This document shows positions 31,757-63,931 of a stretch of 64,000 nt of DNA, piece after piece. The notes below the pieces were generated by a model. The model was not told the DNA's origin. It ran no database searches and was given only the letters and a program-made list of their open reading frames with translations. The translations under genes and the position numbers were made by a program. Source of the stretch: Methanomassiliicoccales archaeon PtaU1.Bin124 (lineage in GTDB: Archaea; Thermoplasmatota; Thermoplasmata; Methanomassiliicoccales; UBA472); NCBI GenBank assembly GCA_002067865.1, contig MVRC01000013.1, positions 1-64,000 of the forward strand. The letters are read 5' to 3'. The stretch's first letter is position 1, and each line of letters opens with the position of its first letter.

Positions 31757-32389
<633 letters not shown>

Positions 32390-35514: not shown

Positions 35515-36522
35515 ATGGCAAACAAAATGACTCCAAAGGAGCGCGTTATGGCCGCTCTGGAAATGAAGAAGTTGGACAGGCCCCCAGTCATCTGCGCCAC
35601 CCAGAGCGTGACCGTGGATGTCATGGACGCCGCAAAGATCTACTGGCCCGAGGCTCACACTGACGCTCAGAAGATGTGCGACCTTTCTTGTGCTATCCCG
35701 CAGGTGTTGGGATTCGAGTCCGTCAGGTTGCCGTACTGTCTGACCGTCGAGGCCGAGATCATGGGCTGCACCGTGGACCTGGGCAAGCAGGACCGCACCC
35801 CCATGCTGAAGAAGCACGCTTTCGAGGCCGACAGCCCGATCAGCCTGCCGAAGGACGTCATCGTTGGCCGCGCCAAGACCGTCGTCGAGGCCGTCAAGCT
35901 GTGCAAGAAGAAGGTCGGCGATGAGTACCCGATCGTCGTCGGTACCACCGGACCCGTGACCATCGCTGGCCACCTGGTCGGGACCGAGAACCTGCTGCTC
36001 TGGATGATCACCGAGCCCGAGGCGGTCAAGAAGTTCGTCGATGTCTCTGCCAAGCTGGAGCGCGCCTACATCAAGGCCCTGTGCGAGGCTGGCGCCGATG
36101 TCATCGTCATGAGCGACCCGTCGTCCTCCACCGACATGCTGTCCGGTGAGCTGTTCGACGAGTACTCCAAGCCCTCGATCAAGGAAGCCTTCGCCGACAA
36201 GGGCAAGGCCAAGACCGTGCTGCACATCTGCGGCGACACCACCATCCTGCTGGACCACATGATCGCCACTGGCGCCGACGGTCTGAGCATCGAGGAGAAG
36301 GTTTCCCCGGAGAAGGCGGTCGAGCTCGTGAACGGCCGCGCTGCCCTGGTCGGCAACGTCGGTGTCGTGCGCCCGCTGCTGCAGGGAACCCCCGCGGAGT
36401 GCCAGGCCGCCGCCGAGCGCTGCGCGAAGGCCGGCTTCAACCTGGTCGCCCCGGGCTGCGGCCTCGCCGCCCGTGTCCCCTTGGCCAACATCCAGGCCTT
36501 GGTGAAGGGCGTAAAGGGCTAA
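35515..36522 (+). CDS. mtaA: Methylcobalamin:coenzyme M methyltransferase, MtaA/MtbA family
   Basis: The 335 residues have the uroporphyrinogen-decarboxylase-like TIM barrel. The zinc ligands of the family are present at the expected spacing: His237 and Cys239 in LHICGDT and Cys315 in APGCGLA. The enzyme moves the methyl group from the corrinoid protein to the thiolate of coenzyme M. MtaA and MtbA (methanol versus methylamine) are not separable by eye. AGGAGG precedes the ATG, a hairpin/oligo-T terminator follows, and the codon choice is biased, all consistent with high expression as a single gene. Confidence 0.92.
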   Translation: MANKMTPKERVMAALEMKKLDRPPVICATQSVTVDVMDAAKIYWPEAHTDAQKMCDLSCAIPQVLGFESVRLPYCLTVEAEIMGCTVDLGKQDRTPMLKKHAFEADSPISLPKDVIVGRAKTVVEAVKLCKKKVGDEYPIVVGTTGPVTIAGHLVGTENLLLWMITEPEAVKKFVDVSAKLERAYIKALCEAGADVIVMSDPSSSTDMLSGELFDEYSKPSIKEAFADKGKAKTVLHICGDTTILLDHMIATGADGLSIEEKVSPEKAVELVNGRAALVGNVGVVRPLLQGTPAECQAAAERCAKAGFNLVAPGCGLAARVPLANIQALVKGVKG

Positions 36523-36619: not shown

Positions 36620-37972
36620 TTGCGCGCAAAATTGTTCGGTTCATCGATCATCGTCTTGCTCTTGGTCTCAACGCTGGCGGGCGTTCTCATCACCACATCG
36701 GATGATGCAGAGGCGCTCACCGATGGCAACCTGGTCTTCGTCGTCGATGGTGGAGGGAACGCGACCATAATCGGTTACAATGGCGCGGGCGGCAGCGTGA
36801 ACATCCCAAGCACGGTCACGAACGGCACCCAGACATATCCCCTCACCGGCATCGGCACCGCCTCGTTCATGAACGAACAGACGGTCACTGCCGTTAACAT
36901 CTCGGAGGGAGTCCGTTCCATAGGCGACTATGCCTTCTACGGATGCGACGCGCTGGTGAACGTTTCGATCCCAAGCAGCGTCATATACGTCGGGACCTAC
37001 GCGTTCTACGGCTGCACCGAGCTGACATCCGTGATCATCCCAGGGAACATCAGGTCCGTCAGTTATGCCGCGTTCGGCTCCTGCTACCGTCTTTCCCACC
37101 TTTCCCTTCCTGACTCCGTCAATTCCATCAGCGGCTATGCGTTCATCTATTGCGCCTCACTGACGACCATTGACGTCCCGAAGAACGTCTCAAGCATCGG
37201 CCCGTACGCCTTCTTCGATTGCACCGCGCTGGTATCTGTACGCATCTCTGACAACGTGTCGATGATCGGAAACAGCGCCTTCGTGAAATGCTCGGCGATA
37301 TCAGAGCTGACCCTAGGCAAGGGTCTGAGGACCATCGATGACATGGCCTTCATGGAATGCTCATCGCTGACCAAGGTGACCTTCCCTGCAATCTTATCGA
37401 CCATAGGGAACCGCTCGTTCGCCTTCTGCACGAACCTTACCCAGATGAACTTCCTTGGCAACGCCCCTGCCTGCGGGACCGAATGGGCCCTCGATGTCGG
37501 CAGCGGCCTCAAGGCTAGGTTCATAGCTGGGGCCTCGGGGTTCACCGAACCGACCTGGCAAGGTGTAACTTCTGTCAGATTGACCGTACCAGATGCCCCT
37601 AACAATCTCACCTCGAAATTGAAAGGGACGAACGTGGAGCTCACCTGGCAACCGCCGCAGGGCTCCAGCAATGACACCATCGATTCTTACCAGGTTTTCT
37701 ACAGCGAGGATGGTGCTCCATACAACTGGACCTTATATGCCACCGTCAACGGTTCGGTCACGAACATCACCATAAAGGGATTGGACATCGGGAGCGTTTA
37801 TCATCTCAGTGTGAAGGCCATCAACATCGCTGGTAGCTCGGCCTATTCCGACCCCATATCGTCCGAGGTGAAGAACACCTCCAATGTCATGGACCTGGTG
37901 CTGGTCCTGGCGGTCATAGCTGCAGTAGGCATCGTTGCCATCCTCATCATACGAAGAATGACCACACGATGA
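36620..37972 (+). CDS. BspA-type leucine-rich-repeat surface protein with FN3 domain
   Basis: About 450 residues from a TTG with GGGGG 8 bases upstream (an earlier TTG at 36593 is weaker). A signal anchor (LFGSSIIVLLLVSTLAGVLI) is followed by about eight 23-residue LRR_5 repeats with the pattern IGxYAFxxCxxLxxVxIP (about 85-300). A fibronectin type III domain follows (about 325-420: PDAPNNLTSKLKGTNVELTW), then a C-terminal helix and a basic tail (IRRMTTR). Cell-surface display for adhesion or protein binding is the usual role of such proteins; many NxS/T sites fit an exterior location. Confidence 0.87.
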   Translation: MRAKLFGSSIIVLLLVSTLAGVLITTSDDAEALTDGNLVFVVDGGGNATIIGYNGAGGSVNIPSTVTNGTQTYPLTGIGTASFMNEQTVTAVNISEGVRSIGDYAFYGCDALVNVSIPSSVIYVGTYAFYGCTELTSVIIPGNIRSVSYAAFGSCYRLSHLSLPDSVNSISGYAFIYCASLTTIDVPKNVSSIGPYAFFDCTALVSVRISDNVSMIGNSAFVKCSAISELTLGKGLRTIDDMAFMECSSLTKVTFPAILSTIGNRSFAFCTNLTQMNFLGNAPACGTEWALDVGSGLKARFIAGASGFTEPTWQGVTSVRLTVPDAPNNLTSKLKGTNVELTWQPPQGSSNDTIDSYQVFYSEDGAPYNWTLYATVNGSVTNITIKGLDIGSVYHLSVKAINIAGSSAYSDPISSEVKNTSNVMDLVLVLAVIAAVGIVAILIIRRMTTR

Positions 37973-38309: not shown

Positions 38310-39341
38310 TCACTTCGATGGATGGTCCCCGGTCGCCTCTTTCAACGCGTTCAGGTTTTCGATCGGCGTCTTATACGGCAGTTCGCAGCCTGGAGCCATC
38401 ACGAATCCCGGAGCGTTTCCCCAAGCGGTCATGATCCGCCTCACCTCGGTGCTCACCTCGGCCGGGGTCTTCTGGAACAACAGCTCTTGATGGTCGATGC
38501 CAGCGAACACGCACATCTTGCCGCGCATCTTGTCGAAGACATCATTCATGATGACGTTCTTGAGATGGAAGTGCATCGCCGCCGGCCTCAATGCCATCTG
38601 CTCGTCCAGGTATGGCTGCTGAGAATCGTTGTGCAGAACAATCCCAACTCCTTTCGACCGGAACGATTCGATCAGGCTCTTTTGGAATGTCAGATCGAAC
38701 TTCTCGCACGCGTCCAGCGGGTTCAGGTCCATTCCGGCCGAGGATGAGTCCATGAACACCGTGTCCAGGCCGATCTTCGCCACATGCTCACCATACGCCT
38801 TGCACGACTCGGTGATAGTTCCGGCCAGCTTCAGCACGGCATCAGGCGAGGTGTACTCCCCCATCAGCAGGTTCTCCATGCCAACGACCTCGCTGGCAAT
38901 GAGCGTCGGCGCGTTCAGGCAGCCGAACACCTTCACTTCCCGACCGACCTTCTCCTGCATCATCGACGCCGCTCTCAACGGTACCGACCAGTAGTGGTCC
39001 TTCATCGGATCGACCGATCGAACCTCGTCCACCTTCGACATGTCCAAGTACTGCGCCGGCCGGGGATAGAAGTCCCTCTCCGGGAACTTCCATTGCAGCC
39101 CATGCGCTTGCGATTCAACCAGCAGGTCCCCCCACCCGGCCATGACATTGTCGAAACCGAACAGCTCATGCGATGCCAAGGAGAGCTTGGCAAAGACCTC
39201 CGGGTCCTCGAAGCCGTTGCGCATCGTCAGCTTGGTGTGCTGCAAGATCCACTTGGCCGCACCCAGGTGCTGGTAAAAGATCGGGGGTCTGTCCACGGGC
39301 CTTAGTCCCAACGCGGCATCGAAGCGTTCGAGGCAATGCAT
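38310..39341 (-). CDS. UroD/MtaA-family methyltransferase with altered zinc ligand
   Basis: The 343 residues follow the MtaA/uroporphyrinogen-decarboxylase barrel (MHCLERFDAALGLRPVDRPP, PTLIASEVVGMENLL, DSSSAGMDL, APGCELPYKTP). At the position of the MtaA H-x-C pair it has His237-Asn-Asp239 (VLHNDSQ); Cys319 is retained. The usual His-Cys-Cys thiol-activating zinc site therefore has Asp for one Cys. It may act on another methyl acceptor or donor. It is divergent from ramA across a 230-bp promoter region. A minus-strand TATA-like TATAATCT at about 39369-39376 suggests a nearly leaderless mRNA. Confidence 0.8.
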   Translation of the reverse strand: MHCLERFDAALGLRPVDRPPIFYQHLGAAKWILQHTKLTMRNGFEDPEVFAKLSLASHELFGFDNVMAGWGDLLVESQAHGLQWKFPERDFYPRPAQYLDMSKVDEVRSVDPMKDHYWSVPLRAASMMQEKVGREVKVFGCLNAPTLIASEVVGMENLLMGEYTSPDAVLKLAGTITESCKAYGEHVAKIGLDTVFMDSSSAGMDLNPLDACEKFDLTFQKSLIESFRSKGVGIVLHNDSQQPYLDEQMALRPAAMHFHLKNVIMNDVFDKMRGKMCVFAGIDHQELLFQKTPAEVSTEVRRIMTAWGNAPGFVMAPGCELPYKTPIENLNALKEATGDHPSK

Positions 39342-39571: not shown

Positions 39572-41212
39572 ATGTCATACGGCGTTGCTCTTGATCTGGG
39601 GACGAGCGGCTATCGCTCCCACCTTGTCGACCTCTCAAACCACGGAAAGATCCTCTCGACCTCCATCACCATGAGGCACCCATTGCCTGGCGCCAACATC
39701 ATGGACCATCTTCACTTCTGGATCGAGAACGGCAACGAGGTCGGACACAGGATCATCATCGAGACCGTCGACCATCTCATCTCCCTGCACGGCGCCAAGC
39801 CCAGCGAGATCACCCGCCTGGCCATCTGCGGCAACCCTGCCCAGCTGTCCATGTTCGAGAACATCGAGATTCGCGACCTGGCATACGCTGGCCAGTCGAT
39901 GCTGAAGCGCCTGGACGTGAAGGTGCCTGAACGCAAGGCGCACGCCATCAAGGCCGATGAGCTGGGCCTGAGCTGCATGCGCAAGGACGCCGAGGTGCGC
40001 ATCCCGCCCTCCATCCGCCATGAGATCGGGGCCGATGCGTTGGCCATGATCATGAAGACCAACATGCTGGAGGACAAGAACATCAGCATGGTCACCGATT
40101 ACGGCACGAACGCCGAGATGGGCCTGCTGTACAAGGGAGAGCTGTACACCGGCTCCGCCGCAGCTGGACCGGCCATGGAGGGCCAGTCCATCGAGTACGG
40201 CATGCTCGCAGCGCCGGAAGCGATCAGCGACCTGGCCGTCGGACCGGACGGCAAGTGGTACAACTTCGTGCTGGACAGCAAGCTGAAGCCCGTCAAGACC
40301 GCGCTCATCAACCCCCGCGACGGGAACGGCCAGATATTGGAGAGCCTGGCGGCCAGGGGAATCACCGGAACGGGCTGCGTGGCCTGCGTCGCCATGGGAC
40401 TGGAGACCGGGGTCATCAAGCTGCCCTCGATCGATACTCCCGATCACAAGATCCACCTGCTCAACGGCATCACCTTCGCCGAGTCGGATTTGCACGAGGC
40501 CGGCAAGGCCATGGGCGCAATCCGGGCCGGTCACAGGACTCTCATCGAGGAGGTCGGCATCGAGGACGGGGACATCAAGACGATGTACCTGGCCGGAGCA
40601 TCAGGAACGTACGTCGACCCCGTCAAAGCCCAAGTGGTCGGACTGGTGCCGCGCGTGCTGGACAAGACCGTCCAGGCCGGCAACACCTCGCTCATGATGG
40701 CCTATGACATCCTGGTGGACGACGACGGCCTGGACAAGATGCAGGACGTGGCCAACGCCATCAGCTCCAAGCACATCATGTTCGCCTCCTCGAAGATCTT
40801 CGAGGACATCTATGTTAACGAGCTGGCCTTCTGGGACGAGGGCATGCCGTTCGACTTCTTCAACGAGATGCTGAAGGAGAAGGGCTACCGCCCCATGCCG
40901 AAGATCAAGGTGCCCAAGGAGACAGTGCGCATCGTCAGCAGCGACATCCCGGTCATCGGCGACCGCGGCCTGAAGGTGCTCGACAATGTCGGCGTCTACC
41001 TGGACGGCTCGTTCGAAGGCTGCATCGGCTGCAAGAAGTGCGAGAAGGAATGTCCCGAGCGGGCGCTGAAGGTGTCGGAACTGGGCAACAAGAAGTTCCT
41101 CATCCGCATCGCCACCGAGCACTGCCTCGGCACCGCCTGCAAGAACTGCGAATCGGTCTGCCCGCAGAAGTGCTACAACTTCAGCGAGCTGAAGATCGTG
41201 AAGCGGAGTTGA
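39572..41212 (+). CDS. ramA: Corrinoid protein reductive activase (RamA-like)
   Basis: The 546 residues have an ASKHA ATPase region of the DUF4445 type (ALDLGTSGYRSHLVDL at the start, TDYGTNAEMG near 182, YLAGASGTY near 345) and two C-terminal [4Fe-4S] motifs, CIGCKKCEKECPERA (from about 484) and CLGTACKNCESVCPQK (from about 518). RamA uses ATP to drive reduction of inactive Co(II) corrinoid proteins back to Co(I). It lacks the N-terminal [2Fe-2S] domain of bacterial activators, as in methanogen RamA. The next gene begins 7 bp after its stop. Confidence 0.93.
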   Translation: MSYGVALDLGTSGYRSHLVDLSNHGKILSTSITMRHPLPGANIMDHLHFWIENGNEVGHRIIIETVDHLISLHGAKPSEITRLAICGNPAQLSMFENIEIRDLAYAGQSMLKRLDVKVPERKAHAIKADELGLSCMRKDAEVRIPPSIRHEIGADALAMIMKTNMLEDKNISMVTDYGTNAEMGLLYKGELYTGSAAAGPAMEGQSIEYGMLAAPEAISDLAVGPDGKWYNFVLDSKLKPVKTALINPRDGNGQILESLAARGITGTGCVACVAMGLETGVIKLPSIDTPDHKIHLLNGITFAESDLHEAGKAMGAIRAGHRTLIEEVGIEDGDIKTMYLAGASGTYVDPVKAQVVGLVPRVLDKTVQAGNTSLMMAYDILVDDDGLDKMQDVANAISSKHIMFASSKIFEDIYVNELAFWDEGMPFDFFNEMLKEKGYRPMPKIKVPKETVRIVSSDIPVIGDRGLKVLDNVGVYLDGSFEGCIGCKKCEKECPERALKVSELGNKKFLIRIATEHCLGTACKNCESVCPQKCYNFSELKIVKRS

Positions 41213-41219: not shown

Positions 41220-42086
41220 GTGAAGTTCTGCACCGTCGTCGACAACCATTCTGGCACCTCGTTCGACAGCAGAAAGATGGTCAGACGGGCGCTGGGCCCG
41301 CAGCATCACTACCTCTCCGAGCATGGCTTCTCCCTGCTGGTCGAGACCGATGCCGGGAAGAAGATACTCATAGACGCCGGCGCCTCCGAGATGGTGTTCA
41401 GGAACAATCTGGAGCTGCTTGGCTACAGGCCTCAGGACATCGACCTGGTGTTTATCACCCACTCCCACTACGACCATGTGGGCGGGCTGAAGTACCTCAT
41501 CGAGAACGGCGTGCCTGTCTACACCCACCCGAAGGCGTTCTCGGGAAAGAAGTTCGTGGCCGTTCCGGATGGCACGCAGCGCGACATATCCGCCGGCGAT
41601 GATGTCGTCCAGGCGCTGGGCAGGGCGAAGCTGAACCTCATATCCACGCCGACCGAGATATCTCCAGGGGTGAAGGTGTCCGGAGAGATCCCCCGTTCCA
41701 TGCCGTTCGAGGTGGAGACGAAGTTCTTCAAGGAGGAGAACGGCCACATCGTCCTGGACAACATGACCGAGGAGATGTGCCTCATGGTCAGCTCGAAGCA
41801 GGGGCTGGTCATCCTCACCGGCTGCGGACACCCGGGCGTGGTCAACATGGTGCAGCTGGCGAAGAAGCAATTCGACAAACGTGTTTATATGGTCGCGGGC
41901 GGCTTCCATCTCTCCGCCAACGTGCCGAACAACGAACGCATCCTGAGGACGATGGACGCGCTGAAGAACTTCGGCGTGGAACGGATCGCGCCGATGCACT
42001 GCACCGGCTTCAACGCGCAGAAGATGCTCTCCGACCGGTTCGTCAACATGGACATGCTCTGGTCCGGCTCAGAGATCGAGATCTGA
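41220..42086 (+). CDS. Metallo-beta-lactamase-fold enzyme, COG1237 type
   Basis: The 288 residues begin at a GTG (MKFCTVVDNHSGTSF). The metal motif THSHYDHVGGL (HxHxDH) and later ligands in LTGCGHPGVVNMV and PMHCTGF are present. This is the COG1237 group, which includes the beta-ribofuranosylaminobenzene phosphate-dihydropterin synthases of methanopterin biosynthesis. Its coupling to ramA suggests a role related to methyl transfer, but whether it makes a pterin is unproven. A 10-bp hairpin follows the stop. Confidence 0.85.
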   Translation: MKFCTVVDNHSGTSFDSRKMVRRALGPQHHYLSEHGFSLLVETDAGKKILIDAGASEMVFRNNLELLGYRPQDIDLVFITHSHYDHVGGLKYLIENGVPVYTHPKAFSGKKFVAVPDGTQRDISAGDDVVQALGRAKLNLISTPTEISPGVKVSGEIPRSMPFEVETKFFKEENGHIVLDNMTEEMCLMVSSKQGLVILTGCGHPGVVNMVQLAKKQFDKRVYMVAGGFHLSANVPNNERILRTMDALKNFGVERIAPMHCTGFNAQKMLSDRFVNMDMLWSGSEIEI

Positions 42087-49571: not shown

Positions 49572-49658
49572 GATCCCTTGCAATGGTCCTTCGACTCGTT
49601 CTTCGAACAACTTGTATCCCCCGAATGAAAAATGATCGAACCAGATGGTGTTTTCTCC

Positions 49659-49666
49659 AATATAAA
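49659..49666 (-). promoter_or_regulatory. TATA box of the giant surface protein gene
   Basis: It reads TTTATATT on the minus strand, about 88 bp before the GTG at 49571, predicting a leader of about 60 nt. Confidence 0.55.
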
Positions 49667-49846
49667 CCATTCCATGCTGGACGAACACTGGGTCTTCTAG
49701 CCAGATGTTAATAAATATTATCATCGGAGAGAGCCTTTTGAACATGCTCTACCCCCATCGATAGTTTCGTTCTCGGCTGGTGTCAATAAAATAAGAGAAA
49801 TAAAATAACCGGGGACTGCATATCGGTTCGATACAGGAGGACATTT

Positions 49847-51203: not shown

Positions 51204-54200
51204 TTGCATCGCTCTGTGCGAGGCCTGTTCCCTTTGCCCCTACAGATCCTTTATGTCGATGACGAAGAGATGCTACTGGAGGTAGCCAAGGCGTTCCTGG
51301 AATCGGACCCTGGCCTGAAGGTGGACACGGTCAACAATGCGGGCGATGCGCTCGATCAGATGCTCAAGAAGCGTTATGACCTCATCCTCTCCGACTATCA
51401 GATGTGGCCCATCGACGGCATCGCACTGCTCAAGGACATCCGGGGGCGGGGCGACCAGATCCCGTTCATCCTCTTCACCGGCAGGGGCAGGGAGGAGATC
51501 GTCATCGAGGCGCTGAACAACGGCGCCGATTTCTACATCCAAAAGGGCGGCGACACGGAATCGCTGTTCACCGAGCTGAGGCACAAGATCAAGATGGCGG
51601 TGCAAAGGCGCCAACAGCATCTGAAGATCATGCAGTACGACGACATCGTGCACCGGATGGACTCGGGCATCATCGTCTTCCGCATCGAGGACCCCAAGGA
51701 CATCACCAGCCTGAAGGTCATCGATGCCAACCCCTGGGTGATGAGGACCTACGCAGCCTTCGGCGTGAACCCGGTGGGGATGAGGGGGTTGGACCTGTTC
51801 CCCCGGATGAACGTTCCGGACATAGTGGACAAGCTCTCCTCGTCGCTGATGAAGGGGGAGAGCGTCACGCTGAACCAGTTCTATTTCCCCGATCCGGCCG
51901 GAAAGGACCGATATTTCAACATCACCGCGTTCCCACTGCCGGACAACTGCTTCGGCGCGCTGGTGAGCGACGTGACCAACATCGTCGCGACGAACGCCGA
52001 CATGATAGAGAACGAGCACAAGTTCCGCGCCCTTTTCAGCACCAGCAGGGTGGCCACGGCCGTGCTGGACTTCGAGACCCAGAGCTTCGAGGACATCAAC
52101 GGGGAGTGGACCGAGCTGTACGGTTACACGCTGGAGGAGCTGAAGGGGAGGGCGATGTCCGACCTCAGCGCCGAGCCGGAGCTGACCAAGGAGTCGGTCA
52201 ACAACCTGCATGACCAGGGCGAGCTGCACGTGCCCATCCGCTACCACCGCCGCAAGAACGGAACCGTCTTCCCGGCCGAGATATCGGCATCATCGTTCAA
52301 CTGGAAGGGAAAAATGCATGTGACCGTCTTCGTGCAGGACATCACGGAGCGGATCAGGGCCGAGGAGCTGATGCGCAAGCGCATGCTGGAGCTGGTCAGC
52401 CCCGGCGATGACACCAGCACGCTCGACTTCGCCGACCTGTTCGACCTGGAGGAGATCCAGCGCATCCAGGACACCTTCGCCAAGGCGATGGGCGTGGCCA
52501 GCATCATCACCGCCCCGGACGGTATGCCGATCACCGAGCCGAGCAACTTCTGCCGGCTGTGCAACTGCATCCGCTCCACCGAAAAGGGGCTGGCCAACTG
52601 CCTCCGCTCCGATACGGAGATAGGCATGGCGTGCATCGGCGGGCCGAAGGTGCAGCACTGCCTCAGCGGCGGGCTGTGGGACTCGGGCACCAGCATCGTG
52701 GTGGGCGGGAAGCACGTGGCCAACTGGCTCATCGGCCAGGTCATGGACGAGGACTTCGATCTCGAGGGAATGATGGCCTACTGCCGGGAGATCGGTGCGG
52801 ACGAAGGGGAGTTCCGCCTCGGCCTGGAGGAGGCGATCCGCATGCCGATGGCGCAGTTCCAGCAGGTGACGGAGTTCCTGAACATCTTCGCCCTGCAGAT
52901 GTCCAACATGGCATTGCAGAACGTGAAGCAGGCCCGGTACATCATGGAGATGAACCATGTTCAGGCCGCGCTGGAGGAGTCGGAGTGGCGGTTCAAGGAG
53001 ATCACCACCAGCAGCCAGGACATCATCACTGTCCTCGATCCGGAGACGCTCGTGGTGCGCAGCGCCAACGAATGCATCAAGACCGTACTGGGCGTCGACC
53101 CGCTGGATTTGCAGGGAAGGCATTTCAAGGACTTCATCAGGTTCGAGGACGAAAAGAGGATAGTCCAGCTGCTGAACGTGATCAGCAAGGACCCTGGCAA
53201 GGTCGTCAACATCGAGACCAAGGTCTTCGATCCCAAGGGCATCATGCACATCATGGAGCTGCATGCCCTGGTGCGCCGCAACCTGCACGGGGAGCTGGAC
53301 ATGCTGGCCAGGATCAAGGACATCACCGCCCGGCGGGCCATTGAGGAGAAGCTCAAGCAGAGCGAACTGCTCTACCGTTCCCTGGTCAACAGCTCTCCAG
53401 ATGGTATCGTCATCAGCGATCTGCAGGGCAGCATCATGTTCATGTCCCCCGGGGCCAAGAGGATGTTCGCATTGCCTCCGGAGTATGACGGCATCGGGGA
53501 CAACATCATGAGGGTCGTGGAACCCGAATCGGTCAAGATGGTGGAGGACAACATCCGGGCGCTCATCTCCGGCGGGGAGGTGCATAACGTCCCCTACCGC
53601 CTCAGGCGCCTGGACGGGGGAATGATATGGGGCGAGATACGCGCCACGGTGTTCTATGACGAATCGGGCAGGCCGACCTCCATCATGTCCATATTGCGCG
53701 ATGTGACCGAGAAGATCCAGGCCGAGGAGGAGATCGAGGAGAGCAGGAGGCGCCTCGCCCTGGCATTGGAGACGGCGGGCGAGGGCTTCTTCGTGTACGA
53801 CATGGCCACCGGCAAGGCCACCTACTCCGACGAGCTGCTGAAGATAACCGGTTACAGCAAGGAGGAGATGGGGGACGGTTTCTCCTTCTGGCTCGACCAC
53901 ATCCACCCGGACGAGAACAAGGGCTGGTCCGAGATCATGGCCGATTTCGGCGATAGCGAGGAGGCGGTGCAGACGGAATACCGGCTGCGGCTGAAGGACG
54001 GGACATGGCGCTGGTACGACTCCCAGGCCAAGGCCATCAAGGCCCCGGACGGCAGCATCTCGCGCATCATCGGAGTGGTAAAGGACATACACGAACGGAA
54101 GATGGCGCAGGAGGCGCTGGCGGCGAGCGAGCGCCACTACCGCGAGCTGGTGGAGAACGCGTCCGAGGCGATCACCATCATCCAGGACGGGCGTTTCCTG

Positions 54201-55124
54201 CTGGTGAACCGGATGGGCCTGGAACTGACCGGATACTCCCGGGAGGAGCTGCTGGCCCTCTCCCCCTTCGCCATCGTCCATCCCGAGGACGTGCAGAAGA
54301 CCCTGGCCAACCATCAGAGGATGCTCAACGGTCAGCCCAGGGAGCCGTACACCATCCGGCTCAGGAACAAGACCGGACAGACGTTCTGGTGCACGGTGAA
54401 CGGCGTTCTTATCGACTGGAACGGCCGTCCCGCGGTGCTAAACTTCTACCAGGACGTCACCGAGACGAAGCGCAACGAGGAGGCCATCCGCATGGCCAAC
54501 CGCAAGCTGAACCTGCTCAGCTCCATCACCCGCCACGACATACTGAACCAGCTGACGATGCTCATGGGCTACATGGAGATGGAGCGCAGCGGCAAGGGGT
54601 TCAGGGAGGCCAACTTCCTGAAGATGAAGCACGCGGCCAGGAACATCGAGCGGCAGATATCGTTCTCCAAGGACTACGAGAGCATGGGGGTGAGGTCCCC
54701 GGAATGGCAGAACGTCGCAGAGGTCTTTGCCAGGGCCGAACAGCAGTTCTACCTGGAAGGGATCGAGGTGGGGTCGGACGTGGAAGGGTGGGAGATATTC
54801 GCCGATCCTCTGCTGGAGAAGGTGTTCTACAACCTCATCGACAACTCCATCCGCTACGCGCAGCATCTCAAGAAGATCAACCTGGTGGTGAACGACGAAA
54901 GGGCGTATCTGAAGATCATCTACTCCGACGACGGCGTCGGGATCAGCCCGGAGGACAGGGAACGGCTGTTCGAGAAGGGCTTCGGCAAGAACACCGGATA
55001 CGGGCTGTTCCTGGCCAAGGAGATCCTCAGCCTCACCGACATCGGCATGGACGAGGTCGGCGATGAGAACGGAGCAAGGTTCCAGATGCTGGTCCCGCCC
55101 GGCAACTTCCGCCGCAAGGCCTAG
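51204..55124 (+). CDS. Soluble receiver-PAS-PocR-PAS histidine kinase
   Basis: The 1306 residues have no transmembrane helix. In order: receiver (about 12-130; YVDDEE, phospho-Asp in LILSDYQMWP), PAS domains (about 145-260 and 270-395), a PocR ligand domain (about 408-577; FCRLCNCIRSTEKG and a downstream Cys), four more PAS domains (about 590-1095), a dimerisation helix with His in SSITRHDILNQL near 1111, and HATPase (NLIDNSIRYA, SDDGVGIS, GYGLFLAKEI). PocR domains in bacteria sense small diols and related compounds. The start is a TTG at 51204 or a GTG at 51216; TATA TTTATAAC at 51179-51186 suggests a leaderless mRNA. Confidence 0.9.
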   Translation: MHRSVRGLFPLPLQILYVDDEEMLLEVAKAFLESDPGLKVDTVNNAGDALDQMLKKRYDLILSDYQMWPIDGIALLKDIRGRGDQIPFILFTGRGREEIVIEALNNGADFYIQKGGDTESLFTELRHKIKMAVQRRQQHLKIMQYDDIVHRMDSGIIVFRIEDPKDITSLKVIDANPWVMRTYAAFGVNPVGMRGLDLFPRMNVPDIVDKLSSSLMKGESVTLNQFYFPDPAGKDRYFNITAFPLPDNCFGALVSDVTNIVATNADMIENEHKFRALFSTSRVATAVLDFETQSFEDINGEWTELYGYTLEELKGRAMSDLSAEPELTKESVNNLHDQGELHVPIRYHRRKNGTVFPAEISASSFNWKGKMHVTVFVQDITERIRAEELMRKRMLELVSPGDDTSTLDFADLFDLEEIQRIQDTFAKAMGVASIITAPDGMPITEPSNFCRLCNCIRSTEKGLANCLRSDTEIGMACIGGPKVQHCLSGGLWDSGTSIVVGGKHVANWLIGQVMDEDFDLEGMMAYCREIGADEGEFRLGLEEAIRMPMAQFQQVTEFLNIFALQMSNMALQNVKQARYIMEMNHVQAALEESEWRFKEITTSSQDIITVLDPETLVVRSANECIKTVLGVDPLDLQGRHFKDFIRFEDEKRIVQLLNVISKDPGKVVNIETKVFDPKGIMHIMELHALVRRNLHGELDMLARIKDITARRAIEEKLKQSELLYRSLVNSSPDGIVISDLQGSIMFMSPGAKRMFALPPEYDGIGDNIMRVVEPESVKMVEDNIRALISGGEVHNVPYRLRRLDGGMIWGEIRATVFYDESGRPTSIMSILRDVTEKIQAEEEIEESRRRLALALETAGEGFFVYDMATGKATYSDELLKITGYSKEEMGDGFSFWLDHIHPDENKGWSEIMADFGDSEEAVQTEYRLRLKDGTWRWYDSQAKAIKAPDGSISRIIGVVKDIHERKMAQEALAASERHYRELVENASEAITIIQDGRFLLVNRMGLELTGYSREELLALSPFAIVHPEDVQKTLANHQRMLNGQPREPYTIRLRNKTGQTFWCTVNGVLIDWNGRPAVLNFYQDVTETKRNEEAIRMANRKLNLLSSITRHDILNQLTMLMGYMEMERSGKGFREANFLKMKHAARNIERQISFSKDYESMGVRSPEWQNVAEVFARAEQQFYLEGIEVGSDVEGWEIFADPLLEKVFYNLIDNSIRYAQHLKKINLVVNDERAYLKIIYSDDGVGISPEDRERLFEKGFGKNTGYGLFLAKEILSLTDIGMDEVGDENGARFQMLVPPGNFRRKA

Positions 55125-56038
55125 TGCTCTGACCGGTCCCCGTTGTAATGCAGGTCGGCCACGGCCTGCTCCATCATCTCGTCGGCGAAGGCGGCGGCGT
55201 ACATGGCCCTCCTGGCCGCCTCTGCCGGTCCGAACATGACGAAGTCCGCCCCGGCCAATATCGGCATGGTGCACGCCGCCGTGTCGACGTTGCGATAGAT
55301 CTTGGCGTCGCTCAAGCGCTCCAGCGGGGGATATGATTCGACGGCGTTGTGCAGGGCGCATCCGCACGGCAGGCCCCACTTCGATTTCGCCACCATCAAT
55401 GCCCGCAGCGCCGAGCCGGCGTTCTGCTGGGACGAAAGCACGGCCATGTCCAGCAGCAGGTTCTTCACCCCCGCCTCCTTCGCTAGAGCGATGAGACCGG
55501 AAGGAAGCAGGCCGCCCCCGTCCTCCAACAGATAGATCTTGCCCTTCACGCCCAGGTCGGCCGGGTGGAAGGCCAGTGCGACGGCGTTCCGCACGCCCAC
55601 CTCGCGCATGGCGCTGACCTCCTCCAGGCCGGTGCCGGCGCTGATGGTGTTGTACACCACCCTGTCTGAAATGCCCATATCGTCCGCCACCACGATGCCC
55701 TCGATCCTCACCCTCCAGGAGGGAGAATCGATGAACAGCGGCAGCCGGGTGATGCCGGACAGCAGCTCCACATGGCTGCGCATGGCCTGGGGCGTTTCCG
55801 CGTAGACCATGAGGGCGGCCGGGGTGCCGGTCGCCATCCTGGCATTGTCCATGTCCCGCAGCACCATGGCCAGCTTCCTCTCGTCCACCGCCCCGCTGAC
55901 CCGGTCGTGGACCAAGCTGTGCCTGGGATAGAAGAGCGAACCGATCATGACGGTTCGGCGCCGGCCTGGCTGGCCTCCGAACTCGACCCCGCCGATGTGA
56001 TGGACCAATTGTGTAGCCTGGAACTTGAACATGCTCAA
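55121..56038 (-). CDS. MtrH-like methyltransferase subunit
   Basis: The 305 residues match MtrH of the tetrahydromethanopterin:CoM methyltransferase along the length: MFKFQATQLVHHIGGVEFGG, IGSLFYPRH, LPLFIDSPSWRVRI, KIYLLEDGGGLLPSGLIALA, KWGLPCGCALHN and ADFVMFGPAE. MtrH transfers methyl between a pterin and the corrinoid on MtrA. Its ATG overlaps the stop of the MtrA-like gene by 4 bp. The other Mtr subunits (B-G) are absent here, so this is a two-gene soluble system. Its 3' end overlaps the convergent hybrid kinase by 4 bp. Confidence 0.9.
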   Translation of the reverse strand: MSMFKFQATQLVHHIGGVEFGGQPGRRRTVMIGSLFYPRHSLVHDRVSGAVDERKLAMVLRDMDNARMATGTPAALMVYAETPQAMRSHVELLSGITRLPLFIDSPSWRVRIEGIVVADDMGISDRVVYNTISAGTGLEEVSAMREVGVRNAVALAFHPADLGVKGKIYLLEDGGGLLPSGLIALAKEAGVKNLLLDMAVLSSQQNAGSALRALMVAKSKWGLPCGCALHNAVESYPPLERLSDAKIYRNVDTAACTMPILAGADFVMFGPAEAARRAMYAAAFADEMMEQAVADLHYNGDRSEH

Positions 56039-56796
56039 TCACCTGTGAAGTAGGACTTCATCTTCTCCGCCAGCTTAAGGCTGGGCGCCTGGAAGATCGT
56101 GCCCGAGACGGGGTCCAGGCCCATGTTGAACTCGTTCGACACGAGGATGAACTTGCTCTTCGTGCTGAGCGCCTCGGACGGCATCGTCAGCATCGTCTCG
56201 ATGATCATGTCGGCGGTGCGGTGCATGCCCCTCGCGGTCATCTCCCCGCTCTGCCTCAGGCCTGGGACCTCCAGGTGCATCGGCCCATACTCCAGGTCCG
56301 CCCCGGGCTCCGCCTTCAGCCGCTTCAGCACCTTGATGAGCTCCGCCCGCCGCTCCTTCTCGAACTCGTAGATGGGGTCCATGGCCACCATCTCCTCCAC
56401 CTCCCGCGGATGCACCAGGTCGATGACGTGCACCTGCTGGCGGAATCGGATGAGCACCTCGTCAGGTATGGAGCAGAGATAGGGAATGGCCCCCTTGGCC
56501 CCGATGATCCTACGGTCCTCGTCCAGCCCGTTGCTCCACAGCGAGACGATCGCATCGCCGGGGAAATGCCCGAACTCCTCCTTGCCGCAGACCACCAGGT
56601 AGCGGATGGAAGGATTGGAGACGATGTTCAGCACCACCTTCTCCAGGCCGAGGTTCTCCGTCTTCACCGTTCCCTTGATCCGGTAGAGGTCGGGAGGCAG
56701 GTCGACGGTGCCGCGGCCGATGATGAGTATCGCCACTCTGGACTCCTCGTTGCCGAGGATGTAATCTCCCTTGTAGGAAGGCCAATCGGGCGACAT
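56035..56796 (-). CDS. MtrA-like corrinoid protein without membrane anchor
   Basis: The 253 residues align with MtrA: WPSYKGDYILGNEES, KTENLGLEKVVLNI, SNPSIRYLVVCG, then GHFPGD, in which His77 corresponds to the cobalt-ligating His84 of methanogen MtrA, and IIGAKGAIPY with RFRQQVHVIDL. The C-terminal transmembrane helix of MtrA is missing; a soluble region of about 100 residues of unclear fold (HLEVPGLRQSGEMTARG) replaces it. It should carry a methyl-corrinoid and work with the overlapping MtrH-like protein. The methyl donor and final acceptor are not evident. Confidence 0.87.
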   Translation of the reverse strand: MSPDWPSYKGDYILGNEESRVAILIIGRGTVDLPPDLYRIKGTVKTENLGLEKVVLNIVSNPSIRYLVVCGKEEFGHFPGDAIVSLWSNGLDEDRRIIGAKGAIPYLCSIPDEVLIRFRQQVHVIDLVHPREVEEMVAMDPIYEFEKERRAELIKVLKRLKAEPGADLEYGPMHLEVPGLRQSGEMTARGMHRTADMIIETMLTMPSEALSTKSKFILVSNEFNMGLDPVSGTIFQAPSLKLAEKMKSYFTGD

Positions 56797-57908: not shown

Positions 57909-58187
57909 GTGGCGAAGAAGACGATCGAATGCATCGACTGCGAACCAGGCATACCGATAGAATCGCTGCGGGACCGGCTGGTCGTCAACGACAAGGTGGC
58001 GTTCATCCCGGGGTTGGAGCAGATGGTGGAGGAGGTGATGCGCCTCAAGCCACCGACCATGCATCAGGCGGGGGAGGAGCTGATGATCAGGGTGAAGAAG
58101 AGCTACCAGATACCGCCAGGCGAGGAGGAGGCATACCGCCGCGCCCTCCTCGATTACTACGATCGCAGGGTGACCACTTTCATCTGA
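57909..58187 (+). CDS. Conserved-looking 92-residue protein with CxxC, unknown function
   Basis: It begins at a GTG with GGAGGGG at suitable distance. The N-terminus has IECIDCEPGIP; the rest is mainly helical and charged (VEEVMRLKPPTMHQAGEEL, PPGEEEAYRRALLDYYDRR). There are no membrane segments. It lies 44 bp before a methyltransferase gene in the same direction, within the block leading to mcr. No family is recognised. Confidence 0.6.
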   Translation: MAKKTIECIDCEPGIPIESLRDRLVVNDKVAFIPGLEQMVEEVMRLKPPTMHQAGEELMIRVKKSYQIPPGEEEAYRRALLDYYDRRVTTFI

Positions 58188-58230: not shown

Positions 58231-59058
58231 ATGCTCATCGCCGACTTCTTCGGTCTGGAGGACCTGTTCTTATTGGAACCGGATTATGTGAAGCTCGTGG
58301 ACCCGGCCTATTCGGACCGGTTCCTCGACCTCGACGCCAAGGCCGGAAGGGTACTGATCGACAAGGAGGAGCGGCCTCTCGCCATCGCGGCCCAGAAGGA
58401 CAACTGGTATGCGACCGTCTTCCTGCACCGGGAGCCGTCCGACGGCATCATCGAGGCGGTGGGCGAGATGGACCTGGAGGTCTTCCAGACGGACCGCACG
58501 GCGTTCACCGGCGCCATCAGGGAATATTATTCCGTGCTGCTGGCCGAGACAGTCGAGCCCTCCCCGGAGGACTACAACCCGGAGCGCAAGGACCAGGTGG
58601 TCTCGCTGCTGAGGCAGGCGTTCGGGAAGGGAAAGCTGAAGGGGCGGACCTGCCTGGACGTGGGCTGCGGCACCGGTCTCGGTTCAGCGGCCATCCACGA
58701 GCTGGGCATGCACGCGGTCTCATACGACATGGACGACGGGCTGCTATCGCGCGGGCTTTCCGCAGGCAGGCTGTTCCATCACGAGACGATGAGGATCGAC
58801 GCCACCCAGGCCTCGTCCTATGTGGAACCGGTCGATCTGGGCCTGGTCCTCATGGCCGGGAAGGTCACGGAGTTCAACTCGTTCCTATGGCGCCACATCA
58901 TACAGCAGACGCTCGACCTCTCGAAGCGCTCGCTCATAACCCTCGAGACCGAGAAGGAAGCGAAACTGGTGGAACCGTGGTGCGCCGGGCGGAAGGTCGA
59001 GGTGTTCGAGAACGACCGGGACCGGTTCTACGACAGATGGGTAGTGCTGGTGAAGTGA
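58231..59058 (+). CDS. Class I SAM-dependent methyltransferase
   Basis: The 275 residues have a novel-looking N-terminal region of about 130 residues and a C-terminal Rossmann domain with the SAM motif CLDVGCGTGLGSAAIHE (about 148-164), an acidic residue in SYDMDDG and motif IV-like VDLGLVLMAGK. The substrate is unknown. Its location a few genes before ycaO-tfuA-mcrB makes an Mcr-related modification conceivable, but the gene is separated from them by DUF169 and Lrp genes, so this is weak inference. A hairpin/T5 terminator follows. Confidence 0.75.
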   Translation: MLIADFFGLEDLFLLEPDYVKLVDPAYSDRFLDLDAKAGRVLIDKEERPLAIAAQKDNWYATVFLHREPSDGIIEAVGEMDLEVFQTDRTAFTGAIREYYSVLLAETVEPSPEDYNPERKDQVVSLLRQAFGKGKLKGRTCLDVGCGTGLGSAAIHELGMHAVSYDMDDGLLSRGLSAGRLFHHETMRIDATQASSYVEPVDLGLVLMAGKVTEFNSFLWRHIIQQTLDLSKRSLITLETEKEAKLVEPWCAGRKVEVFENDRDRFYDRWVVLVK

Positions 59059-59156: not shown

Positions 59157-59864
59157 ATGTCGAACTACGCTGAACTTTCAAAGAAGCTGATGGACGCCCT
59201 CGGCCTCAGGACCGAGCCGGTCGCAGTCACGCTGATCAAGAAGGGCCAGAGCATTCCAGAAGGGTACAATACCGTGGAGGGCCCGACGCGTCATTGCCAG
59301 TCGATCATGAGGGCACGGAAGGGAGAGTCGCTGTGCGTGCCGATGGAGAAGAACGCATGCCCTGTCGGGGCATCGGCATTGGGCGAGACGCCTCTGCCAG
59401 AGAAGGTCAGGTCGGGCGAGTTCCACTTCAACATGGGCATGTACGAATCGCAGGGGGCGGCAGCGGTCACGATCTCGGTCCGCCCGGCCATGCCGGCGGG
59501 GAGCACCATTGCCACAGTGGTCAGCCCGCTGAGCCAGGCAAGGATCGAACCGGACGTCGTCATCGTCGTCGGCCTGCCCGAGCAGGCGTTCTGGATCATC
59601 CCGGCGGCGCAGACGTTCGAGAAGGGCGGCAGGGTCACGGTGGAGATGGCGGCGGTGCAGGCAGCGTGCGTGGACAGCACCGTCATCCCGATCGACAAGA
59701 AACATGTGAACATCTCTCTGGGCTGCTTCGGCTGCCGCAAGACCAGCGACATCCAGCCGGAGGAGATGCTGATCGGCATCCCATGGTCGATGTTCGAGAA
59801 GACCGTGGAGGCCGTGGAGAAGATGGCCCAGGGCCCGATCCCCAAGTCGAGGGCGAAGGCGTAA
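59157..59864 (+). CDS. DUF169 family protein
   Basis: The 235 residues match the DUF169 pattern found widely in methanogens: YAELSKKLMDALGLRTEPVA, HCQSIMRARKGESL, then CPVGASALG and a C-terminal SLGCFGCRKTSDIQPEEM with IGIPW. Conserved Cys residues suggest metal, cluster or cofactor binding. The biochemical function is not established for the family. It has its own promoter region (TTTATTAATA near 59115) and precedes an Lrp-type regulator. Confidence 0.82.
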   Translation: MSNYAELSKKLMDALGLRTEPVAVTLIKKGQSIPEGYNTVEGPTRHCQSIMRARKGESLCVPMEKNACPVGASALGETPLPEKVRSGEFHFNMGMYESQGAAAVTISVRPAMPAGSTIATVVSPLSQARIEPDVVIVVGLPEQAFWIIPAAQTFEKGGRVTVEMAAVQAACVDSTVIPIDKKHVNISLGCFGCRKTSDIQPEEMLIGIPWSMFEKTVEAVEKMAQGPIPKSRAKA

Positions 59865-60499: not shown

Positions 60500-61693
60500 A
60501 TGCGACTTGTTTCCAGGCCGAAGGTGGGCAGCGACGATGGGCAGCGTTCCATTGCCGCCGCCAGGACGCTGGAGAGGGTCGAGGGGCTGTGCAAGGTCGC
60601 CGGCATCACCAGGGTGGCGGACATCACAGGGCTGGACCGGGTCGGCATTCCTGTCTTCTCAAGCATCAGGCCTGAGGCGGAGGGCGGGGCCATATCGGTC
60701 TACAATGGAAAGGGGGCCACGCCCATCCAGGCCAGGGTCTCGGCCATCATGGAAGGACTGGAGCGGTACAGCGCTGAGGAGAGGGGCGACAGGATCGTAA
60801 GGAAGTTCGCCGGCGAGATGCAGAACGCCATCGACCCCAGGGAGATCATCCTTCCCCAGCCCACGTTGTTCCAGCTGGCCCAGAGGCCGATCGCATGGAT
60901 GGCCTCGTACGACATCGTCAACGAGACCGAGTTGATGGTCCCCGCCTGCGCAGTCCTCCATCCTTACAAGGCCAAGGCAGATCTTCCATTGTTCCGCAGC
61001 AACACCAACGGTCTCGCATCTGGCAATAATCTGGAGGAGGCGGTGCTTCACGGCCTGTGCGAGGTGATCGAGCGGGATGCCTGGTCGCTTTGCGAGGGGA
61101 GAAGGAAGGTCGTCTCCGATCTGACCGTCAGTTCGGGCGAGGCCAAGACGCTCGCGGACAAATTCACCTCGAACGGCATCGAGCTTCACTTCAAGGACAT
61201 GACCAGCGACATCGGTCTGCCGGTCATAGCGGTCGCAGCGGACGATGTGGCCACGAAGGACCCGGGGCTGTTGACGCTGGGCATCGGGGCGCATCCCGAC
61301 CCCATGACCGCGGCCGTCAAGGCCCTGGTCGAAGTGGCGCAATCCCGGCTCACTCAGATCCATGGGGCCAGGGAGGACACGGTTCATGCGGACCGGAACC
61401 GCCATATGGGCTATGACCGGATCAAGAAGATGAACAGGCTGTGGTTCGAGCCCAGCGGTGCGAGCAGATCGCTGGACGAGGTCGGGTCGATGTCCACCGG
61501 CGACGTGCTGGACGACATCAAGGCCATCTGTGCCTCGCTCGGAAGGGTGGGCCTCGACAGGGTCATCGTGCACGACCTCACCAGAAAGGAGCTGGACATC
61601 CCGGTGGCAAGGGTCATAGTGCCGGGACTGGAGGTCTTCGCCATCGACCCTGACAGGGTAGGTCGCAGATTGATGGAGGCGAGCAGGCGATGA
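60500..61693 (+). CDS. ycaO: YcaO protein for McrA glycine thioamidation
   Basis: The 397 residues are typical of methanogen YcaO (methanogenesis marker 1): GAISVYNGKGATPIQARVSA, the ATP-site motif SAIMEGLERYSAE, NTNGLASGNNLEEAVLHGL, CEVIERDAWSL and the C-terminal VPGLEVFAIDPDRVGRRL. YcaO activates the backbone amide of a McrA glycine with ATP so that sulfide can form thioglycine. It overlaps tfuA by 4 bp and lies about 0.9 kb upstream of mcrB, matching its role in Mcr maturation. Confidence 0.94.
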   Translation: MRLVSRPKVGSDDGQRSIAAARTLERVEGLCKVAGITRVADITGLDRVGIPVFSSIRPEAEGGAISVYNGKGATPIQARVSAIMEGLERYSAEERGDRIVRKFAGEMQNAIDPREIILPQPTLFQLAQRPIAWMASYDIVNETELMVPACAVLHPYKAKADLPLFRSNTNGLASGNNLEEAVLHGLCEVIERDAWSLCEGRRKVVSDLTVSSGEAKTLADKFTSNGIELHFKDMTSDIGLPVIAVAADDVATKDPGLLTLGIGAHPDPMTAAVKALVEVAQSRLTQIHGAREDTVHADRNRHMGYDRIKKMNRLWFEPSGASRSLDEVGSMSTGDVLDDIKAICASLGRVGLDRVIVHDLTRKELDIPVARVIVPGLEVFAIDPDRVGRRLMEASRR

Positions 61694-62358
61694 GCGTCCA
61701 TGTGTTCATGGGGATGAGCCTGCCGCAGGAGGAGGCGATGAAGGTGCTCCCCGCTATCTACCACCCGCCCATCAGACGCGGTGACATCCCGCAACTGCCC
61801 GAGGACGTCACGTTGGTCGGGATCATCGACGGCGTCTTCCTCAGCGAGTCATCGGTCGGGCACAGGGAGATCCTCACTTTGATCAAGAAAGGGATCACGG
61901 TCGTCGGGGGAGGGAGCATGGGGGCGCTCAGGGCGATGGAGCTCGAGGACGCGGGCATGATCGGCGTGGGGCGCATCTTCAAAATGTATCGCGACGGCGT
62001 CATCGAAGGGGATGATGAGGTCGCGCTCGTCTTCGACCCGGACGACCTCACCGCCCTCTCGGAGCCGTTGGTGAACATGCGGCATTTCTTGGCCGAGGCG
62101 GTGCGGCGAGGGGTGATCGGACAGGAGGAGGCGGACATGATCATCGCCGAAATGAAATCCCTCTACTATCCGAGAAGGAGCTATCACGAACTGCTGAAAA
62201 GCGCATCGAAGATCGTCGATGAAGTTACGCTCTTAGCTTTAAAGAAGATGCTAGATTCTGAATCGTTCGATTTGAAGCGAATGGATGCCTTAGAGGTATT
62301 AAATACATTGAAGCGCTTGCACCATTCCTCCGGTAAGGGCCGGAAAAAACCGATTTAA
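61690..62358 (+). CDS. tfuA: TfuA-like protein, partner of YcaO in McrA thioamidation
   Basis: The 222 residues match TfuA: VFMGMSLPQEEAMKVLP, YHPPIRRGDIPQL, IIDGVFLSESSVGHREIL, VVGGGSMGALRAMEL, then a helical C-terminal half. It is thought to help deliver sulfide to YcaO. Translation is coupled to ycaO (ATGA overlap). The last 50 codons are markedly AT-rich compared with the rest of the gene. Confidence 0.93.
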   Translation: MSVHVFMGMSLPQEEAMKVLPAIYHPPIRRGDIPQLPEDVTLVGIIDGVFLSESSVGHREILTLIKKGITVVGGGSMGALRAMELEDAGMIGVGRIFKMYRDGVIEGDDEVALVFDPDDLTALSEPLVNMRHFLAEAVRRGVIGQEEADMIIAEMKSLYYPRRSYHELLKSASKIVDEVTLLALKKMLDSESFDLKRMDALEVLNTLKRLHHSSGKGRKKPI

Positions 62359-62395
62359 GACCGTTAAAGTGAACGGGACTTAACACCGGTTAAGT
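62354..62395 (+). promoter_or_regulatory. Tandem palindromes upstream of mcrB
   Basis: Two sites lie about 25 bp centre to centre: TTTAAGACCGTTAAA (62354-62368, arms TTTAA/TTAAA) and ACTTAACACCGGTTAAGT (62378-62395, perfect 7-bp arms). They begin inside the tfuA stop region and lie about 100-145 bp upstream of the mcr TATA box. Confidence 0.55.
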
Positions 62396-62471
62396 ACGAT
62401 TTTTTTATTATGTGTTAACTAGTTGCTACTTTAGACTGGCTATCATTTGTCCTTTACCTATTGTTAATGGT

Positions 62472-62488
62472 GGATGGTTTATCCATCC
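62472..62488 (+). promoter_or_regulatory. 17-bp element shared with the corrinoid-gene promoter
   Basis: GGATGG-TTTAT-CCATCC is a perfect inverted repeat ending exactly 9 nt before the TATA box. The corrinoid-gene copy (31661-31677) differs at two bases and has the same 9-nt spacing. Probably an activator-binding site next to the TFB element. Confidence 0.65.
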
Positions 62489-62497
62489 AAGAGCAAG

Positions 62498-62505
62498 TTT
62501 ATATT
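62498..62505 (+). promoter_or_regulatory. TATA box of the mcr operon
   Basis: TTTATATT predicts transcription start near 62525, so the leader before the mcrB ATG is about 78 nt. Confidence 0.65.
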
Positions 62506-62539
62506 CGAAAAATGTGAATTCACCGTCCGCAAGGGGAGC

Positions 62540-62579
62540 CAATTTTCATTGAGGTCTGTTTGAGATTCAATGGAAATTG
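62540..62579 (+). promoter_or_regulatory. Hairpin in the mcr leader RNA
   Basis: CAATTTTCATTGA (62540-62552) pairs with TCAATGGAAATTG (62567-62579): thirteen pairs including one G-U, around a 14-nt loop. It ends 10-11 nt before the AAAGGAGG ribosome binding site (62590-62597). Confidence 0.6.
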
Positions 62580-62602
62580 AGTTAGTAGAAAGGAGGTATA
62601 GA

Positions 62603-63931
62603 ATGGCAAAATACAAGGACAAAATAGACTTGTACGACGACAGGGGCAAGCTGATCGAGAAGGACGTTCCTCTCGAAGCAATCAGCCCGTTGTACAACCC
62701 GGCCATTAAGAGGACTGTGTCTCTTGCCAAGAGAGTTACTGCAGTCGACCTCGCCGCACTTGAGGGAGGCCTCAAGAAGGCAAAGGTCGGAGGCGGACAA
62801 CTGAAGGGCAGGGAAATGGACCTCGCGATTGTGGCCAACGCTGACAAGATCGCGAAGAGGGTTAAGGACATTCTGAAGACCGCCAAGGACGACGACACTG
62901 AGGTTTCCGTCATGTCTGGCGGAAAGAAGCTGCTCGTCCTCGCCCCGACCACCAGGATGGACGCCGGTGTCGAGTACACCACTGGCTTCACCGCTTGCGC
63001 TTCCGCATTGGTGCAGGCCGTCATCGACCAGTTCGATGTCGACATGTTCCAGGCGAACATGGTGAAGGGCGCCGTCTGGGGCCGTTACCCGCAGACCTTG
63101 AACTTCCAGGGATCCATCATCAAGAGCATCCTGGATGTTCCCCAGCTGAACGAGGGTGCCGGTTTCGCCCTCAGGAACGTCATGGCCAACCACTACGTCA
63201 TGCTGACGGGCAGGAACGCCATGAACTCTGCCGCCCTGGCATCCATCTTCGAGATGGCCGCTTCCTTCGAAATGGGCGACGCAGTTGGTCCGTTCGAGCG
63301 CCAGCAGCTGCTGGGCCTGGCCTACCAGGGCCTGAACGCCAACAACATGGTCTATGAGATCACCAAGGAGAACGGCAAGTCCGGAACCATTGGTACCGTC
63401 GTCGAGAGCCTCGTTGAGAGGGCGCTCGAGGACAAGGTCATCAAGAAGGGCAAGAAGTACCCGTCCGGATTCGTCGAGATGACCACCAACGACTACCCGT
63501 TGTGGAACGCCTACGCTGCCGCCGGTATGCTGGCCGCCATCAACGTCAACATCGGTGCCGCTAGGGCTGCACAGGGTGTCCCCGCGACCATCCTGTACTA
63601 CAACGACCTGCTGGAGCACGAGACCTCCCTGCCGGGCGTCGACTATGGCCGCTCGATGGGTACCTCTGTCGGTATGTCGTTCTTCAGCCACTCGATCTAT
63701 GGTGGCGGTGGCCCCGGTCTGTTCCACGGTAACCACGTCGTTACCAAGCACGCCAAGGGCTTCGTCATCCCAGTGATCGCTGCCGCATGCGCCCTGGATG
63801 CCGGAACTCAGTACTTCTCCGCAGAGAACACCTCCCCGCTCATGAAGGAGGTTCTGGGAGACATACCCGAGTTCAAGACCCCCATAAAGGTGGTCGGCAA
63901 AGAGGCCAAGAAGATCAAGGGAGACTTCTGA
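62603..63931 (+). CDS. mcrB: Methyl-coenzyme M reductase beta subunit
   Basis: The 442 residues match the family length. Recognisable McrB segments include [91 protein letters not shown] and [20 protein letters not shown] near the active-site channel. It is part of the alpha2-beta2-gamma2 F430 enzyme that reduces methyl-CoM with CoB to methane. The ATG at 62603 has AAAGGAGG upstream; the longer frame is not used. Codon use is strongly biased, as for highly expressed genes. Confidence 0.98.

Follow-up and report, generated by a model that had tools for sequence, protein, structure and literature searches.

The methyltransferase Mtr is normally a membrane-bound, sodium-pumping enzyme, and members of the order Methanomassiliicoccales count as obligate methyl-reducing methanogens. 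Here, we analyzed the first 64,000 nt of contig MVRC01000013.1 from Methanomassiliicoccales archaeon PtaU1.Bin124 (the whole stretch is called the window below), which encodes a pair of proteins resembling the Mtr subunits MtrA and MtrH. Such a pair, mtrAH without mtrB–G and with a divergent MtrH, was described in 2018 for a Methanomassiliicoccales genome, where MtrA was seen to carry an unusual C-terminal extension and a methyl-tetrahydrofolate (THF):coenzyme M (CoM) methyltransferase was proposed (PMC6147122). mtrA and mtrH were later found in most of the environmental clade (PMC10804542, 2024), and both MtrAH without the remaining Mtr and fused MtrAH have been discussed for other archaea (PMC9635834, PMC11291895). 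The window is a further carrier of this published pair, and the novelty assumed in the initial annotation of this DNA does not hold, since the 2018 study had already reported the gene pair with its extension as well as the folate:CoM idea. Our contribution is the surrounding island, the linkage across the order and the presence of the extension throughout the clade. We found no report of a laboratory functional test of the pair in the literature.

The mtrAH genes of the Lake Pavin cluster (MALP) and other environmental Methanomassiliicoccales share with the window the pair without mtrB–G, the MtrA extension, the THF pathway and carbon monoxide dehydrogenase/acetyl-CoA synthase (CODH/ACS), and nothing essential is known to differ between them (PMC6147122, PMC10804542). 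With the canonical complex (MtrA–H), the window pair has in common the corrinoid domain with its cobalt-ligand His and the MtrH barrel with its catalytic residues. Unlike that complex, it has an extra C-terminal region, no membrane anchor and no membrane subunits that we could find, there is no sign of tetrahydromethanopterin (H4MPT) synthesis, and it probably does not transport sodium. Soluble MtrA is also known from cytoplasmic MtrA homologues and from MtxA–MtxH (PMC4915002, PMC3087415), the latter likewise paired with an MtrH, but these MtrA are 170–180 amino acids (aa) long, lack the extension and occur in addition to the Mtr of their methanogen hosts. No mtxX was among the scanned neighbours of the window pair, the whole genome not having been searched for it. 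The corrinoid:pterin methyltransferases MtgA and MtoA share the MtrH fold and an Asp/Asn catalytic pair with the window MtrH, and MtgA uses THF; their partners, however, are MtaC-type corrinoid proteins, whereas the adjacent partner here is MtrA. Finally, CmtA of Methanosarcina acetivorans sets a precedent for a soluble methyl-pterin:CoM route around the pump (PMC7374477). Its likeness is one of function only, CmtA being a fused corrinoid/methyl-transfer protein, unlike the two-protein MtrA–MtrH.

In the window, the mtrA-like and mtrH-like genes follow each other head to tail, with Pfam matches far beyond chance:

56035..56796, minus strand: mtrA-like gene, 253 aa (Pfam MtrA PF04208, 1.8e-41; PDB 5laa, 2.6e-38)
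56035..56382, minus strand: C-terminal extension of MtrA, ∼115 aa, present in all 41 aligned Methanomassiliicoccales MtrA
55121..56032, minus strand: mtrH-like gene, 303 aa with the ATG start (305 aa with TTG at 56038; Pfam MtrH PF02007, 2.8e-64)

The mtrH homologues start with M-F-K-F, which corresponds to the ATG at 56032, and an AGGTGA lies 6 nt upstream of this codon. Because of these homologous starts and the ribosome-site spacing, translation of mtrH probably begins at this ATG rather than at the TTG, so that 2 nt separate it from the MtrA stop; the 4-bp overlap of the two genes given in the initial annotation needs the TTG start and is probably wrong. Its statement that no mtrB–G lie nearby was confirmed for the scanned genes neighbouring the pair. 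The source genome (2.2 Mb, 99.8% complete) was covered by family searches and selected stretches, which revealed only one MtrA place and no MtrE; no individual searches were made for mtrB, C, D, F and G.

Residues 3–138 of the MtrA-like protein make up the corrinoid domain and residues 139–253 the conserved extension. His77, which had been matched to His84 of MtrA from the sequence, indeed aligned to the His of the GHxxG motif in solved MtrA structures, and Glu52 is the equivalent of Glu54 in the cobalt-ligand relay (PMC4915002); both are kept in 41 of 41 relatives. The lack of a C-terminal membrane helix was likewise borne out by hydropathy (maximum 19-residue Kyte–Doolittle mean of 1.04 for the protein) and by an AlphaFold2 (AF2) model. 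This model (predicted local distance difference test (pLDDT) 88) matched 5l8x in Foldseek with a TMt of 0.83, and its confident matches were MtrA structures only. Within the model, the extension is confidently folded into helices at residues 147–162, 184–202 and 240–250 and three short strands, for which Foldseek returned no fold match in the PDB. No extension of this length was seen in the sampled MtrA of other Thermoplasmatota, which are soluble, mostly ∼190–230 aa long and in most sampled loci adjacent to MtrH. The aligned MtrA of the order share conserved motifs in the extension, yet no conserved Cys or His. We rejected a catalytic role for it on account of this absence and the missing PDB fold match. 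Since no Cys or His is conserved, an MtaA-like zinc-thiolate site is unlikely and docking likelier; as the extension is also conserved and confidently folded, the docking of a partner suggested in the initial annotation is plausible.

The AF2 model of MtrH (pLDDT 93) matched M. mazei MtrH (template modelling score 0.93) and MtgA with methyl-THF (0.88), as well as the Methermicoccus protein 8z9u. Asp102 (37 of 38 sequences) and Asn229 (36 of 38) correspond to Asp102 and Asn227 of MtgA, the residues mutated in the structural work on MtgA with methyl-THF. In-frame stops inside some MtrH matches were ordinary gene ends where checked.

An order-wide survey of 147 Methanomassiliicoccales genomes detected MtrA in 41 genomes and MtrH in 42. 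The two sets differed by a single genome, and every MtrA carrier also had MtrH (41/41). The order's MtrA formed one clade (100/99), as did its MtrH (100/100); with few references for canonical Mtr (three MtrA, two MtrH-type), the trees do not settle where these clades stand relative to it. Whether the window proteins fall with other such pairs had been raised in the initial annotation: MtrA and MtrH each grouped with the order's other pairs, and both clustered with the same three relatives. A query with the full MtrA returned 13 loci, all in Methanomassiliicoccales, Methanomassiliicoccaceae, Methanomassiliicoccus or Euryarchaeota metagenome-assembled genomes. One could view the pair as a non-functional relic of an ancestral Mtr complex, as the membrane subunits are lost, the pair is patchy in families f5 and f6, and one copy (L071) has diverged. 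However, active-site residues and extension are conserved across 16 genera, and every carrier has retained both MtrA and MtrH, which makes a relic hardly credible.

Taking sequence, residues, predicted fold, gene linkage and genome content together, we give a somewhat better than even chance to the pair being a soluble, two-protein methyl-pterin half of Mtr, acting on THF and delivering the methyl group to CoM via MtaA without sodium pumping. In this mechanism, MtrH would move the methyl group from methyl-THF to Co(I) on MtrA, with His77 as the lower ligand; the resulting methyl-Co(III)-MtrA would be demethylated by CoM, most likely through an MtaA encoded in the same genomic island, and RamA would re-reduce MtrA that has slipped to Co(II). 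The net reaction would be CH3-THF + HS-CoM → CH3-S-CoM + THF, by which folate-bound one-carbon units, from formate or from acetate via CODH/ACS and AcsE, could enter methane formation. Methyl transfer from methyl-H4MPT to CoM is exergonic (−30 kJ/mol; PMC3087415). The folate half of the mechanism is fairly well supported; we infer the CoM half and the direction of transfer, as well as THF as the substrate, MtaA as the partner and docking by the extension.

Contig C11 of the source genome encodes formyltetrahydrofolate synthetase (FTHFS), HdrA/MvhD-like proteins, MetF, AcsE, AcsV, a MesB-like protein, the corrinoid iron–sulfur protein (CFeSP) and CODH/ACS. Because beta-RFAP synthase, an enzyme of H4MPT synthesis, was not found in the genome (it was found in 4 of 14 control genomes), H4MPT synthesis appears unlikely. 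At L081:5505–10408, HdrA2-like and MvhD/VhuD-like genes precede MetF, which suggests a MetF tied to heterodisulfide-reductase-type electron transfer. This gene content agrees with the soluble, non-pumping link between a cobamide-bound methyl group and folate put forward in the initial annotation, whereas it speaks against the purely biosynthetic purpose suggested there, since the genome already has AcsE and a MesB-like methionine synthase. The MesB-like gene lies in the CFeSP/CODH locus and was assigned from gene position and an HCC...C motif only, with no Pfam or NCBIfam match; it fits the MesB-only pattern published for the order (PMC7857596). For MtrA to feed a core methionine synthase, in the way that the same study proposed for MesA of other methanogens, is very improbable here, as we found no convincing MetE/MesA match and no MetH-type S-methyltransferase in the genome or the order. 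Those weak PF01717 matches that we checked within MtrAH loci were MtaA/uroporphyrinogen decarboxylase (URO-D) proteins. We therefore dropped MtrAH both as a methionine supplier and, with AcsE encoded, as the methyl supplier of acetyl-CoA synthase; the pair seems unneeded for either.

The same genes bear on the reverse direction, in which methanol-derived methyl groups would pass via CoM and MtaA, or via a corrinoid protein, to MtrA and through MtrH to THF, for acetyl-CoA or for oxidation to formate; methanol disproportionation was likewise proposed in PMC6147122. Indeed, a bacterial-type CODH/ACS with AcsE needs methyl-THF, MtgA and MtoA move methyl groups from corrinoid to pterin without sodium, and transfer from CoM to THF was argued to be less uphill than to H4MPT (PMC6147122). 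However, starting from CH3-CoM without sodium coupling is uphill by ∼30 kJ/mol for H4MPT, methyl-THF is already supplied by FTHFS and MetF, and we identified no dedicated methyl donor for MtrA. We consider this direction rather unlikely, if still a serious contender.

Entry of the methyl group at CoM, the preferred outcome, is favoured because an mcr–RamA–MtaA island is conserved around the pair. A role in the CoM pathway had been offered as an alternative in the initial annotation and gains from this context; the unknown methyl donor that it attached to this role is possible and has no direct support. The island members in the window are:

31757..32389, plus strand: MtaC/MtbC-like corrinoid protein (TIGR02370, 173 bits, under the cut-off of 215; B12-binding Pfam domains)
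35515..36522, plus strand: MtaA-type methylcobamide:CoM methyltransferase with HxC...C zinc motif (PRK06252, 355 bits, cut-off 244; TIGR01463, 312 bits, cut-off 235; MtaA equivalog model, 348 bits, under the cut-off of 400)
38310..39341, minus strand: divergent URO-D/MtaA-family protein with HND in place of HNC
39572..41212, plus strand: RamA-type corrinoid reductive activase (TIGR04270, 707 bits, cut-off 500)
41220..42086, plus strand: metallo-beta-lactamase (MBL)-fold protein, the companion of RamA across the island (same cluster as the L052 MBL protein)
59157..59864, plus strand: DUF169 protein, conserved island member adjoining the cassette (PF02596, 4.9e-62)
60500..63931, plus strand: YcaO and TfuA (McrA-glycine thioamidation), then McrB, with mcr running on past the window

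In 26 of the 44 MtrA loci examined, the pair has RamA and the MBL-fold protein next to it or close by, usually with MtaA and/or the divergent URO-D, and the opposite flank holds DUF169, an Lrp regulator, the YcaO/TfuA thioamidation genes and mcrB; several loci end at contig boundaries. Since the same island exists without MtrAH in pair-less relatives (G126, G111, G024, G010, G015, G016, G018, G019), MtrAH is a removable cassette, gained or lost in a general methyl-CoM island whose MtaA and RamA are shared machinery.

The divergent URO-D has HNC..C in the other relatives inspected, and HND, with the zinc-ligand Cys changed to Asp, in the source genome and G130. As in Mto or Mtg systems, this protein or another enzyme could load MtrA from an unknown methylated compound, with MtrH passing the methyl group on to THF. 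The version with HNC..C adjoins RamA in many carriers, and the Mto cluster combines an O-demethylase, a corrinoid protein, an MtrH-like protein and an activator. Yet the divergent URO-D also occurs in islands without MtrAH, its zinc-ligand Cys is lost here, and such enzymes have MtaC-type partners, to which MtrA bears no homology (PMC4915002), so that we judge this route improbable.

Several points weigh against transfer from methyl-THF to CoM by the pair. In both sequence and fold, MtrH resembles the canonical MtrH that uses H4MPT somewhat more than it does MtgA, which uses THF. Four loci of genus g26 in family f6 (L062, L065, L068, L069) have a solitary MtrA with no adjoining MtrH; MtrA of this genus is missing one residue before the GH motif, and in G108 at least, MtrH lies on another contig. 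The pair is away from the RamA–MtaA island in families f5 and f6. MtaA and RamA also occur in genomes without MtrAH, where the island persists, hence the idea that RamA, MtaA and URO-D are partners dedicated to the pair was dropped. Finally, the proposed transfer is favoured by the association of the pair with CODH/ACS (40 of 41 MtrAH carriers versus 31 of 106 non-carriers) and MetF (33 of 41 versus 15 of 106), but Fisher p values overstate this because the carriers are related, and the MetF association is weaker inside CODH/ACS-positive genomes (p about 0.004). Most carriers without MetF have incomplete draft genomes; exceptions include G143 (90% complete) and G014 (97%).

If the pair does work as a methyl-THF:CoM methyltransferase, wetland members of the order would be able to turn formate or acetate into methane, which would change substrate accounting, and the methyl-transfer core of Mtr would be able to function without the pump and with folate. 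More tentatively, environmental Methanomassiliicoccales in general could make methane from folate-bound methyl groups (formate/acetate) via a soluble, pump-free MtrH–MtrA–MtaA relay, with the extension as a docking platform replacing the membrane subunits; we regard this as possible rather than probable. The interest thus lies in a sharper, testable hypothesis and not in novelty: the conserved island points to MtaA and RamA as possible partners, and it offers natural genomes with and without the cassette.

Further genes were observed around the pair. Convergent with mtrH, a 1306-aa protein that combines receiver, PocR sensory and histidine-kinase ATPase domains with several PAS domains is encoded at 51204–55124 (plus strand); none was seen beside mtrAH of relatives. 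The island here also contains two insertions, a 1983-aa beta-helix/NosD protein (43794–49745, minus strand) and an LRR_5/fn3 surface-type protein (36593–37972, plus strand). Beside DUF169 and mtrAH lie two genes conserved in genera g1 and g7, one of 92 aa with no family match (57909–58187, plus strand) and one of 275 aa with weak methyltransferase matches only (58231–59058, plus strand). In genus g7, a 241-aa gene without assignment adjoins mtrA (L049:8494–9219). A CobW-type GTPase and an unassigned gene of ∼160 aa recur beside mtrAH or MtaA across families (L059:2691–3365, L071:7390–7872). Similarly, a hydantoinase-like protein (L035:7201–9177), possibly linked to the reactivation of corrinoid proteins, recurs beside MtaA/RamA or MtrH in many loci.

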